From Siphonodentalium dalli (taxonomy: Eukaryota; Mollusca; Scaphopoda; Gadilida; Siphonodentaliidae), in contig CP136065.1 of NCBI GenBank assembly GCA_032622095.1, forward strand, positions 157,733,577 through 157,797,576: a stretch of 64,000 nucleotides of DNA, given 5' to 3'. The position numbers and the translations under genes are program-made. Below the pieces are notes generated by a model, which searched no databases, was not told where the DNA came from, and was given only the letters and a program-made list of their open reading frames with translations. This document shows positions 25,556-62,650 of this stretch, one piece after another; the stretch's first letter is position 1, and each line of letters starts with the position of its first letter.

Positions 25556-25806
25556 GTATGGTCCCATGATAAAGTCTGTTATGGCTCGAGTGTAATAGAT
25601 TGAGGGCATATACATGCAATTTATGGAATCTGATGCATTGCTTATAGATTATATGGAAAATCCTGTGAGCCAACATGAACTTCAACATGGCGTCAATGGC
25701 TTGAGACATCAGAGCAGTGAAGATGACGAGATGATCGACGTTACCGTATCTAGAGATCTCGAGGAACCGCGAGAATACAGAGATGATCCTGAAAGAACAG
25801 GGGGCA
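25556..25806 (+). CDS. CLC H+/Cl- exchanger, alternative first coding exon 1a (N terminus type 1)
   Basis: Exon bounded by a strong acceptor (TTTTCCAG at 25548-25555) and a perfect donor (GTGAGT at 25807). A 58-nt 5' leader with in-frame stops precedes ATG at 25614; a second ATG at 25623 is also possible and neither has a strong Kozak context. Coding part 25614-25806 gives 64 codons plus one base (phase 1), which joins cleanly to the exon at 62432 (GGC A + GT gives Gly-Ser-Ala-Ala). The peptide is acidic. It has a classic acidic dileucine signal (ESDALLI, residues 5-11) and a Ser-Ser-Glu-Asp-Asp-Glu-Met-Ile-Asp stretch (about residues 34-42) that resembles the [11 protein letters not shown] region of vertebrate ClC-3, where such motifs direct endosomal sorting. 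The product is expected to be an endosomal/lysosomal 2Cl-/H+ antiporter. The family call depends on the downstream exon; the link is by phase and motif. Confidence 0.75.
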
Positions 25807-26214
25807 GTGAGTAGATTTATATTTTTCTATCCTTGTTTTCAGCTTTTGCCTTAGAGCAAATATGTCTCTGATAAATGCAATTGGTGGCGGAAGGGTGGGT
25901 GCGGGGATGAGACACTGGTGCAATCGGCAATTTCCCCCCCAATCGCTATGTCCATACTTTGGTGAATGAGCACACTATCATTGCCCATCATCCCCCCACC
26001 TTTAGTCTACATTTCCTTACCTTGAGCAATCAATATCATCACAGAAAATCATCTCCATATAAATTCTCTAGTGGTTTTTTCACATCCATAAAAACCCTTT
26101 AATCTTTGATGACATGCGATTTCTTCGCTGTCCTGCTGTTAAGTTCAAATGTTAAAAGAACATCTATGTCAGCCATTGTTCAAACTTCTTAAATGTGACT
26201 CAAACGTCAAAATA
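25807..26214 (+). other. Start of the 36.6-kb CLC intron
   Basis: GTGAGT donor followed by non-coding DNA with short C-rich runs. No repeat recognised. Confidence 0.5.
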
Positions 26215-26327
26215 CAGTAATGCCCTAAATAATCAACTCCTTAATCAACAGCAGAATTATGGGTATTTTTCAGGATTTAATCGGAAATATGGCTTGTTGC
26301 CATTCATCGGAAAGCTCTCAGTGAGAA
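26215..26327. mobile_element. Family A left half only
   Basis: Starts CAGTAATGCCCTAAATAATC after TA and stops at the centre of symmetry (GCTCTCAGTGAGA). The right arm is absent. Confidence 0.75.
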
Positions 26328-27400
26328 ATGAATTATGTACTAGTAAGATGAAAAATATCCTTATGGCCAAGGTAATAAATATAGAAGTCAGTGTTATATA
26401 GGGAAACCTGGTGATAAATGTTGGTGAGCATGGCATAGCAAGCTCAACTACCGGACATAGAATCGTTTGTACGATGAATCTTAATGTTTTCTAATTCAGA
26501 ACATCCTAACTTACATCTAAAATGAATAATATTTGTGTGATTCTCTTGTAAAGTGGTTTAGATATAATTTGAAATATCCCAATTTTGTCCTACAACTAAG
26601 GGAAAGGGGCATTTTACAATTTACATATATATTCCAGGATTCAAAGGGTTAATATACATCTAGCAATTGATGACATCTCCATTTCTTGTGGCCTTGCATG
26701 GTTATCATAGGATTATAGAGTAGTTCCTCTTGCTCTCTGCTGCTGACTGTTGATGCTGTGCTAATATGTATAGAGTAGTCTCTCCTTTATAGTTATGTAT
26801 ACTCCATTCACATAATACGAGTCAATACAAACAATACGAGTCAATACACTCAAAATGGCACATAATAAAGCCAGCAGTAACCATATTAATGGGCATTCTC
26901 ATTATCTTAAAATTATATATAAACAATATTTTTAATATAATGAGCATACTTACGACCTACATAACATAACAAAAAACCACCAGATGAGAAACTTGTATAT
27001 ATCAGACATGATGTCGCTCTTACATGTATATATACAATATATTTAAAATAAAAACAAAATAAAACAAATATCTTATGTCAAAATATTTGATATAGAGATT
27101 CAAGCATCTTGGGTTTTACATTTATTTATTTTAAACCTGCCATGTGTCGGGTGCTCCTAACCAAAGGAGGAAATTCCAATGAACTGAACTGAGTTACTAT
27201 GTGAAAATGTTGAAACAACAGTTATTTAAATCTGGTTAATTTTAATAACTCACTTATATCCTGGGAACAGATAACAATTTTCAAATCTGTTTATCAATAC
27301 AGTTAATATATACCATGCTTTTTAAATCCCTTACTGTTTGGAGAACTGAAATTATGCTCTCTTCTGTTACATCCTGGTCTAGCGTCTGGGATCCAAACTA
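26328..27400. other. Intronic, mostly unrecognised
   Basis: A lone piggyBac-type end, GATTCAAAGGG followed by TTAA, lies at 26638-26652 and matches the terminus of the 5235-6400 element; no partner end was found. ACAATACGAGTCAATACA units repeat twice near 26815-26850. Otherwise nothing. Confidence 0.45.
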
Positions 27401-59494: not shown

Positions 59495-59570
59495 CCCTTT
59501 CTGTACTAATTACTCCATTCCAAAATATACTTTTATAACTGAATGGGAGAATCTATTTAGCGAAGAAATG
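59495..59570 (-). mobile_element. Family D, internally deleted remnant
   Basis: ACCCTTTCTGTACTAATTAC joined to CTTTTATAACTGAATGGGAG…TTTAGCGAAGAAATG: both ends without the middle (about 170 bp lost). Targets are decayed. Confidence 0.65.
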
Positions 59571-62431
59571 AATAATGTGCAAGTGAATTAACTATAGGAC
59601 TTAATCTCTCAAGGGCTAAAGCTTAAACTGACATAACTTTGTTAATTCCTAACCATTAGACTACATGTATTTGTGTAGCATATTTCACAGCATTGGTAAA
59701 CACTTGATTTGAAGTTTTGTGTGAGTTATTTTCATGAGAGGGTCATAAATTTTGACAAAAATAGCAAAAGGAATATATATATCAGAAACTAATGTGCTTG
59801 CAGCATTAGTAATGAGTGCACCATTGTATTATTCTGGGATTCCGATGAAGGTCAGAAGATATTATGCTAAAAGTATGTTGACAATAAATAATGAGCTTTG
59901 TATCGAGTTCATATTGATTTCATTCCTTACTGAGAGTTATTGATATGGTTACTTTGTCTCCACTTTGTTGGCCACTTCATAAAATGGAAGCTAAATACTT
60001 CAAACATTGATATGGGATATTATGTTTCAGAGGTTGATTTAATTTCTTTTAATTGATCAGCAATTGCCTTCACATTAAAGGCTTGTGTACAGTATTCGCC
60101 ATCATGTACATGTTTCTAACGGAAAATGGTTAGCTAAAATTTTAAATTAATCTGAATTGATCGCCTTAAAAATAATGGTTGCTAAATTTATTCAATTTAA
60201 ATAGACATGTTCTGATATCCAGAATAATAAATATAGCATATATTGCACAAATATAAATAAAACAGCTGTATGTTGGCTGAAGTAAAATGCGGTCCATGTG
60301 ACAAGTGTTGCCAGGGCAATAAGCCAAACGAGTTCACAGTTTAAACCCGTTGGCTTGCAGATTGGCTAAAACATATTTCACTTCACAATTTTGTTGTTGT
60401 TTAGTAATTAGGTCATACGCTCGACACATGATTGCCACGTGGAATTTGGGAAATCCCCAGGTTTTCCAGGCCTATAAAGGGTTTTCTGTTAGCAGTTGCA
60501 AGTGTTAGGATATAAATATAGTTGTCTTTTTGTTGACATAAGTAGATCTACTCACACCCAGGCCACATCTGGACTGTGGATCGCCATTATGTTCTTTTAT
60601 TGAATGTAGCTTTTGATCAGGCAAATAAACCCCAGTTAATTATTCACAGATTTTCTATATGTAGGTGAGATGCCACCTCCTCTGTGCACACAGAATAGAA
60701 GGTGTCAATGTCACTGCCCCTCCTCCACACATGTGCTGAAGCTATCTAGCAATCCATCAGACACCTGTTGATGAGGTACATGTACACGGGGGTTAATAAG
60801 CAATAATAATTATTGATGATCACAGATGTTCAGTTTACGACTAACCACAAATATTCATCATGGTTTTCGTTTGTGGAAACATATGTTGCAGTTATTGTGA
60901 TTGTGGTACATGTATATTCATTTAGGAAGTTGCTGATATTGAAATATCTGCACCATTTGTAGTCAGCTGTTACCATATAAGTTGTCACAATATATCTAAG
61001 TTATCTCTTCTGGACTATCCATCCGATGTGCTGTTCTTGATATATACCAATTTCATGGTCACTGATTCATGTAAGGACTGTTAACCTGAGTGGTATAGAT
61101 CAACCTGTGTGCTATCTATTGATGACTGTATGGTGATAGGATTTATATTTGGTCACTGTGGGCATGTTCAGTGTTCAGGATTAAACCAGGTTTTATATGG
61201 AGGTGTGTATGGAACGTGTGTACCAGACTTGATGATCTGTGAAGGCAGTATATTGCCCTTCCATTTAGATTCTTAGTGACCATTGAATATTGTGTGTGTT
61301 TGAGGATGATGAATTCACCTTTGGAGAAAGAAAAAATAATAAAAGATCAAGAGCTACATAGATATGGTAAGAAAACACAGACGATGAGAGAATCACAGAT
61401 GGCCAAAATCTATGCTTTTGCTCAGAAGAAATGAATGCAGTGGGGGATAATGGTTCTCACTAAATGTGCCGCCAACAACCAATAACACACACACCCACTA
61501 CATTCATTTTCTTATACTTATTTTGCTTTTTGATGATTTATTCCTATAAAAATCTTGAGTGTATTCTTTTTTATTTTCACAAAATCTGCCGAGAATTTGA
61601 GACTAGCCCATGTAGCATATTAAGTCAGCCCAATATAAGATTGCCAAGCACTCAGCAATGATAAGGAACTGCTTTCATTTGTTTTATCTTTTATTATATG
61701 TTTTACAGTAAACGGCTCTAAACGGCCGTAAAATAAATGGCATATCAATCGCTTGTCCCAGCGAGTAAATATTATTTTGTTATTTAATTTTCGTAATTAC
61801 CTTCTTAGCCTTACTACTGGTGAATCATGGTCACGGGCTCCAACTAAACTAAAAGAATACGCCATGAAGCAACCAGATTATATCAGAGCGTGATGAGTCT
61901 AAATTGATCGCGTTATTAATGTTATTTAAAGTGGGACTGATAATGGAACTTTATTCTCTGTGTTGTTGTTTATATTAAACTTGCATATTTAGACACTTTT
62001 GGCAAATATTAATGGGGAGGAAAAAGGGGACTTTTTTGTTATGCAGAAACGCAGCTTCTATCATTGAATGTAGTCTGTTGGCTGATTCGTTTTTGTCTAC
62101 ATTTAATTTAGCTAAACAAGCGCCGTAGAGAAAAAATATTAGAATGAAATAATGAAAACGCATATAATAAATATGAAACCATTGAGGCCACGACTTTTGA
62201 CTGAAAACAATAATTCTCCGATGAGTGGGTACAAGCAAACACTAATTTTCCACTCGCAGCAAGCCGCTCGTGGAAAATCGGTATTTGCATGTACCCACTC
62301 ATGATAATTCTCATATTCAGTCAAAAGCCGTAAGTATCCTCTATATACAGATATAACTGAATGGATTAATATGAAGTAACTTCCCATCAGTAATTATCCA
62401 GTTGTTGAAAGGTTAACTTTTTATTTCTCAG
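59571..62431. other. Last 2.9 kb of intron before CLC exon 2
   Basis: None of the named MITE families was seen across almost 3 kb, unusual for this intron. An imperfect inverted repeat, CTGAATATGAGAATTATC and related TGAGTGGGTACAAGCAAA / TTTGCATGTACCCACTCA, lies at about 62190-62330. The acceptor TTTTTATTTCTCAG ends at 62431. Confidence 0.45.
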
Positions 62432-62650
62432 GTGCAGCTAATCTCATTGACACGCTAGATGATCTACCTCCTGGCATTGGTCAGTATGAAGATTTCCACA
62501 CAATCGATTGGCTGCGCGACATTGCGCGGGATCGTATGCGACATAGGAATATCGTTAAGAAGAAACAAGAGGGATGTATAGAGGCTGTGAAGTCAGCACA
62601 CGATGCCTGGTCTGGGTGGCTGTGTGTCTTCCTTGTCGGACTCGCTGCAG
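62432..62650 (+). CDS. CLC H+/Cl- exchanger (ClC-3/4/5 group), exon with FHTIDW and DAWSGW
   Basis: 219 nt, phase 1 at both ends, acceptor TTTCTCAG and donor GTACGA. Together with one base from the preceding exon it encodes 73 residues beginning AANLIDTLDDLPPGIGQYED. The order is: a leucine/acidic turn (LIDTLDDLPPG, the counterpart of LLDLLDEPIPG in vertebrate ClC-3), the invariant FHTIDW block, a basic amphipathic stretch (RDRMRHRNIVKKKQE), then AHDAWSGWLCVFLVGLAAG, the start of the first intramembrane helix in CLC transporters. This combination is diagnostic of the endosomal ClC-3/4/5 exchangers, which swap two Cl- for one H+ and support acidification and chloride loading of endosomes and lysosomes. 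The selectivity and proton-glutamate motifs lie in downstream exons outside the window. Which of ClC-3, -4 or -5 cannot be said; invertebrates usually have one co-orthologue. Confidence 0.92.

Follow-up and report, generated by a model that had tools for sequence, protein, structure and literature searches.

Does a scaphopod mollusc choose among several sorting tails for one endosomal chloride/proton exchanger by choosing the first exon of its gene? The question is raised by a 64,000-nucleotide stretch of the Siphonodentalium dalli genome (contig CP136065.1 of assembly GCA_032622095.1, positions 157,733,577 to 157,797,576, forward strand), hereafter called the window and numbered from its first letter. 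In it, three candidate first coding exons, 1a, 1b and 1c, precede a shared exon 2, predicted to belong to a gene of the CLC-3/4/5 type. On balance, we somewhat favour the view that all three are mutually exclusive alternative first coding exons, through which a single exchanger would reach different endosomal compartments.

Organization of the locus

An earlier note on this DNA had proposed a CLC exchanger gene with three alternative first exons, all ending in phase 1 before the single acceptor at 62432. Exons, donors, phases and acceptor were found as proposed, and the frame is kept across each of the three joins. Only the left end of 1b changed its meaning: the coding span and the donor stand, but 43238 is an ATG and no splice site. 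The features are the following.

25556-25806, plus strand: putative alternative first coding exon 1a, from ATG 25614 or 25623 to a phase-1 end; peptide MQFMESDALLIDYMENPVSQHELQHGVNGLRHQSSEDDEMIDVTVSRDLEEPREYRDDPERTGG
43238-43385, plus strand: coding part of the putative alternative first exon 1b; peptide METNSIKHDIKKKMMKISENIPLEAMARARSKLTHYDTLAEEYEELQEE, its ATG standing in a strong start context, ACCAAGATGG
52063-52181, plus strand: candidate exon 1c, with ATG 52094 if it is a first exon; peptide MGLESSEEFQQSTFIEQFNVDKFTNVPLN, containing NVPL
62432-62650, plus strand: shared exon 2, 219 nucleotides, phase 1 in and out; predicted to encode the N-terminal cytosolic block of a CLC-3/4/5 Cl-/H+ exchanger and the beginning of its membrane part
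62651-62656, plus strand: exon 2 donor GTACGA, score 8.86

Donors lie at 25807 (1a, GTGAGT), 43386 (1b, GTAAGA) and 52182 (1c, GTAAGT), and the predicted introns to exon 2 measure 36625, 19046 and 10250 nucleotides, respectively. The joined products read ...DDPERTGG-S-AANLIDTLDD... for 1a, ...EELQEE-G-AANLIDTLDD... for 1b and ...FTNVPLN-G-AANLIDTLDD... for 1c, the isolated residue being encoded by the split codon. On donor and acceptor weight tables which, like the average residue frequencies used, are approximations, the acceptors of 1c (7.7), 1a (7.4, a strong site) and exon 2 (5.6) rank fourth, sixth and sixteenth among 3211 plus-strand AGs. The donor of 1b scores 10.34 and that of 1c 9.77; only 4 out of 3578 GTs reach at least 10, and 15 at least 9.

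Identity of the gene

The identity of the gene is supported by exon 2. It shares 40 out of 71 residues with ClC-3, encodes a cytosolic N-terminal block and a first helix of the CLC-3/4/5 kind and, as residues 51-121 of a query in which 1b is joined to it, matches three distinct solved ClC-3 sequences in the PDB with E about 4e-23, in agreement with the exchanger originally proposed. The sole further match at E <=0.01 was a PPR repeat protein (6e-4), dismissed as an effect of weak repeats, while neither ClC-6/7 nor channel-type CLC proteins were matched at E up to 0.01 in the PDB sequence search with 1a or 1b joined to exon 2. ClC-3 residues Y85 and D87 are kept in exon 2; the ClC-3 variants Y85C and D87E are reported to resist inhibition by TMEM9 subunits (PMC11962092). 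No next CLC exon was detected in 62651-64000, where the best three-frame score against a ClC-3 continuation was 28, versus a shuffle mean of 27.3. The window ends before the transport-domain exons (GSGIP, GKEGP, GLFIP, gating and proton glutamates); what it holds is supported as the 5' part of a gene predicted to encode an endosomal CLC-3/4/5-type exchanger, an assignment made from a single exon.

The first methionine of exon 2 is residue 35, downstream of YEDFHTIDW. As there is none before the conserved block, an upstream coding exon is needed. Vertebrate ClC-3a starts within the corresponding shared part, with MTNGG, which fits published residue numbers, and ClC-5 starts with MDFLEEP; starts of this kind are unavailable here, since exon 2 has no early methionine.

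The three candidate N-termini

In exon 1a, in-frame stops separate the acceptor from the ATG, so that a non-coding exon should lie upstream; an internal coding role for 1a is precluded in that frame. Short upstream open reading frames (ORFs) fall within 25556-25613, one of them in frame and with two closing stops; translational control by them is possible.

The motifs for which 1a had been singled out are both there: ESDALL, near the peptide start, is its sole [DE]xxxL[LI], and SSEDDEMID resembles the SSDEDLMDI of the long ClC-5 form. The acidic serine stretch, which reads QTSEDD or SSSDED in the references, appears in 1a as QSSEDDEMID, the residue pair right after it being MI versus NLLD or DLMD in the references. 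ATG-initiated frames with 24 codons or more ahead of a donor scoring 5.5 or higher were taken as candidate ORFs; the window has 102, counting both strands, all phases and nested frames. Exon 1a is the best of them against both ClC-3b (similarity 39, next 28; p 0.0096 from 5000 shuffles) and long ClC-5 (38, next 26; shuffle p 0.022), both values being uncorrected, and comes top in total coding composition, with 15.5 bits. The segment aligned to the ClC-3b N-terminus was SQHELQHGVNGLR-HQSSEDDEMID. Moreover, 1a joined to exon 2 outscores 1b joined to exon 2 by 5.5-6.7 bits against the three solved ClC-3 sequences. The likeness to a vertebrate ClC-3 N-terminus suggested at first is thus supported, as one to the ClC-3b and long ClC-5 type; 1a is very probably a real first coding exon, and a pre-vertebrate origin of its type appears likely.

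Exon 1b has no comparable acceptor: the best AG within 160 bases upstream of its ATG scores just 1.6, and 1b thus looks like a true 5'-terminal exon. Its peptide contains two YxxPhi motifs, YDTL and YEEL, and NIPL, which vertebrate ClC-3c also carries. Against ClC-3c it ranks second of the 102 ORFs, with a similarity of 29, behind an evidently spurious minus-strand ORF with 34; its coding composition, 9.2 bits, lies below that of 1a and of one acidic minus-strand ORF (listed twice). Alignment of ENIPLEAM to the DNIPLREL of ClC-3c gave an uncorrected p of 0.0076 when the GTHYT that follows in ClC-3 was included, and of 0.024 when it was left off. The THY of 1b, which contributes part of the score, was rejected as a counterpart of the vertebrate THYT, and is probably not homologous to it, because the latter belongs to the sequence that ClC-3b and ClC-3c already have in common. 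Of the resemblance to another vertebrate isoform initially read into 1b, the NIPL motif holds, but the alignment to ClC-3c is weak evidence (uncorrected p 0.008-0.024, outscored by a spurious ORF), and a ClC-3c-type N-terminus is suggestive only. As to its being a real first coding exon, we consider this quite probable.

Exon 1c had been presented as a third form with nothing familiar in it; it is indeed a distinct exon candidate, but a recognisable feature was found, NVPL, one residue off NIPL. Its ATG stands in a good start context (TTAACTATGG), and its similarity scores against the references are 20-25, fourth for long ClC-5 among the matches listed and otherwise outside them. The frame is open over all 119 nucleotides, and the exon could also be internal, after a phase-2 exon. 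If fed from 1a or 1b, which end in phase 1, 1c would meet stops, and should therefore exclude both; judging from the frames, it should be fed by a coding exon that ends in phase 2 or by a leader without coding sequence. We lean, less firmly than for 1b, towards 1c being a real first coding exon.

The six-frame translation of the window, 120051 residues in all, contains N[IV]PL four times. Two of these fall in 1b and 1c, in whose 78 residues 0.0026 would be expected; the others, at 14125 on the plus and 20938 on the minus strand, lie in frames that measure 16 and 14 residues from stop to stop. Outside NIPL/NVPL, the likeness of 1b and 1c to ClC-3c is weak (p 0.024 and 0.036), and homology of either to ClC-3c would be a further step. 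Guzman et al. in 2015 reportedly defined the ClC-3c motif as an isoleucine-proline pair; in a literature search for isoleucine-proline, the word was absent among the matches listed.

Expectation by chance

Agreement in phase was rejected as evidence, being at chance level by the candidate counts: 24 plus-strand candidates end in phase 1, including 1a, 1b, 1c, the shared exon and nested frames, 15 in phase 0 and 17 in phase 2; on the minus strand the counts are 14, 15 and 17 for phases 0, 1 and 2. For this reason all 102 ORFs were scored jointly. Splice-site pairs alone were likewise discarded, as 17 out of 40 order-3 Markov windows hold a pair at least as good as that of 1c; on the real plus strand two other acceptor/donor pairs, sharing the acceptor at 12642, outscore it. 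Combining splice sites with an ORF, in 300 order-4 Markov windows, yielded expectations per 64-kb strand of 0.007 for 1a, 0.12 for 1b and 0.013 for 1c, at least one such feature being present in 2, 33 and 4 windows, respectively; the real minus strand contains none.

A scan with acceptors of at least 9, donors of at least 6.9 and 24 codons returned no first exon on either strand in any phase, being too strict for the acceptors of 1a (7.4), 1c (7.7) and exon 2 (5.6). Inspection by eye of the 24 phase-1 candidates, and of three more of 8-23 codons with donors of at least 8.5, brought out no convincing fourth first exon. Pfam gave no match for 1a joined to exon 2 or for 1c, and sub-threshold matches only for 1b. 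Relatives were absent from 23 pattern matches in viral contigs and from 58 in the genome contigs of a prokaryote collection, where a further 115 matches included one candidate, in a bacterial metagenome-assembled genome; this was taken for chance, the match being confined to REYRDDPE, the pattern searched for, and its near surroundings.

Several observations weigh against a full set of three first exons, a model which draws on one genomic sequence alone. For 1a, short ORFs precede the ATG, the donor is modest (6.95, with A at the last exon base) and the first two ATGs have no purine at -3. For 1b, ORF/donor combinations of its kind arose in the 33 simulated windows mentioned above; and, since the thresholds were fixed at the observed values, all figures of this control are best-case. 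The similarity p values of 1a and 1b (0.0096 and 0.0076) fail the Bonferroni limit of 0.0056 for nine exon-reference comparisons, the remaining seven ranging from 0.022 to 1, and an acidic minus-strand ORF attains a coding score of 0.50 per residue versus 0.24 for 1a and 0.19 for 1b. For 1c, the coding composition is about zero (0.7 bits), the similarity p is 0.05-0.14 in the ORF comparison or 0.036 in the motif comparison with ClC-3c, both uncorrected, the NVPL was a post hoc observation, and a tail with valine in place of isoleucine may be sorted differently.

Alternative explanations

The most serious competitor holds that only 1a, with or without 1b, is real, 1c and perhaps 1b being chance ORFs before good donors of long introns. 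The expectation of 0.12 1b-like combinations per strand makes this conceivable, as do the lack of a coding signal in the composition of 1c and the ease with which site pairs equal to its own arise, both in the simulations and twice more on the real plus strand. Once an ORF is demanded, however, the expectation for 1c falls to 0.013, that for 1b staying at 0.12, the real minus strand offers no such feature, and chance would have had to place N[IV]PL in both exons; we regard this explanation as rather unlikely, though the least so of the three weighed here.

That 1c instead lies inside the coding sequence of yet another N-terminal form, fed by an upstream phase-2 coding exon, would suit its fully open 119 nucleotides and its acceptor, fourth among the plus-strand AGs. 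The good start context at its ATG speaks against it, and none of the nine upstream plus-strand phase-2 candidates (donor 7.5 or better, 8 codons or more, two being nested) looked by eye like a cytosolic tail, which leaves it improbable. Finally, phase 1 is common to many exons, and the joins of 1b and 1c to 62432 are predicted from sequence, so either exon might be the first of a different, nested gene, spliced elsewhere. No other gene turned up, however: Rfam and ARAGORN were negative on the whole window, and a GIY-YIG fragment was the only Pfam match from the 10 frames submitted out of 27 that reach 95 residues, a survey which genes made of short exons would escape; NIPL and NVPL, in turn, suit a CLC-3 tail. 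A nested gene is accordingly given very little credence.

Proposed mechanism

If all three first exons are real, alternative transcript starts or promoters would pick one of them per transcript, unseen non-coding leader exons preceding 1a and 1c, and each would be spliced in phase 1 to exon 2. We infer transcription and mutual exclusivity from frames and splice sites. The transport domain would stay constant, the choice of first exon setting the cytosolic sorting tail: 1a would provide an acidic/dileucine tail of the ClC-3b and long ClC-5 type, for the late endosome or lysosome route, and 1b and 1c N-[I/V]-P-L tails like that of vertebrate ClC-3c, for the recycling endosome route.

Other elements in the window

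Directly 3' of exon 2, at 62662-62866, lies a near-perfect palindromic repeat resembling a miniature inverted-repeat transposable element; several full or partial copies of this family occur in the window, e.g. at 19221-19514, 31100-31314, 40403 and 46180. A 187-residue open frame at 36307-36870, which Pfam matches to a GIY-YIG endonuclease (E 2.8e-6), is presumably a remnant of a Penelope-kind retroelement. An array of about 22-base units at 9334-9760 is built on the palindrome GTGATATCAC, and a 150-base tandem repeat, whose unit starts with GAAAAAGGGCCATAACTCC, occupies 8885-9164; the latter may be of a type present in bivalve genomes.

Comparison with known systems

Vertebrate CLCN3 already uses alternative N-termini, and the kind of system proposed here is therefore known. 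As proposed for the present locus, one transport domain is combined, in ClC-3a, ClC-3b and ClC-3c, with different N-termini, among them a long acidic one (ClC-3b), and the shared block PG[IV]GxY[DE]DFHTIDW is common to both. In contrast, the shared part of the vertebrate gene holds the start methionine of MTNGG, absent from the present exon 2, which has no THYTMTNGG part, and a third candidate form, with NVPL, is found here. In mammals, according to a review, ClC-3A, B and C resemble each other in transport and differ in location: a sorting motif in the N-terminus takes ClC-3C to recycling endosomes, ClC-3A goes to late endosomes and lysosomes, and ClC-3B perhaps to the Golgi (PMC7940362). Two further sources place ClC-3b in lysosomes and ClC-3c in recycling endosomes (PMC12479943, PMC10134905), and another review has ClC-3b as the Golgi form (PMC11381013); with the literature split between lysosome and Golgi, the location of a 1a-like form is disputed.

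Human CLCN5 is similar in having several alternative 5' exons and a long ClC-5 form, of 816 amino acids according to a kidney study, which lists eleven 5' ends, the canonical 746-aa protein being the predicted product of all but 3 (PMC4105828); it differs in that most of its 5' ends are predicted to give one protein. Among invertebrates, Drosophila ClC-c is a CLC-3/4/5 homologue with an extended N-terminus, longer than that of ClC-5, GSGIP lying at 316 versus 167 (PMC11000744). No title on N-terminal isoforms of invertebrate CLC-3/4/5 proteins was present among the matches listed, which says little on whether such isoforms have been annotated before, as most subscription papers and annotated animal genomes were outside the search.

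A more far-reaching possibility is that the split between dileucine/acidic and N-[I/V]-P-L tails pre-dates vertebrates, the two N-[I/V]-P-L exons having arisen by duplication or convergence and the shared exon offering no usable start. We put this forward tentatively, as doubtful; were it so, every molecule would have to carry a sorting tail, because the shared exon could not initiate one. Should transcripts confirm the three exons, sorting by first exon would be an old feature of CLC-3/4/5 genes and no vertebrate invention, and the tails of so distant an animal would show which residues of the acidic dileucine and N-[I/V]-P-L signals sorting really needs.

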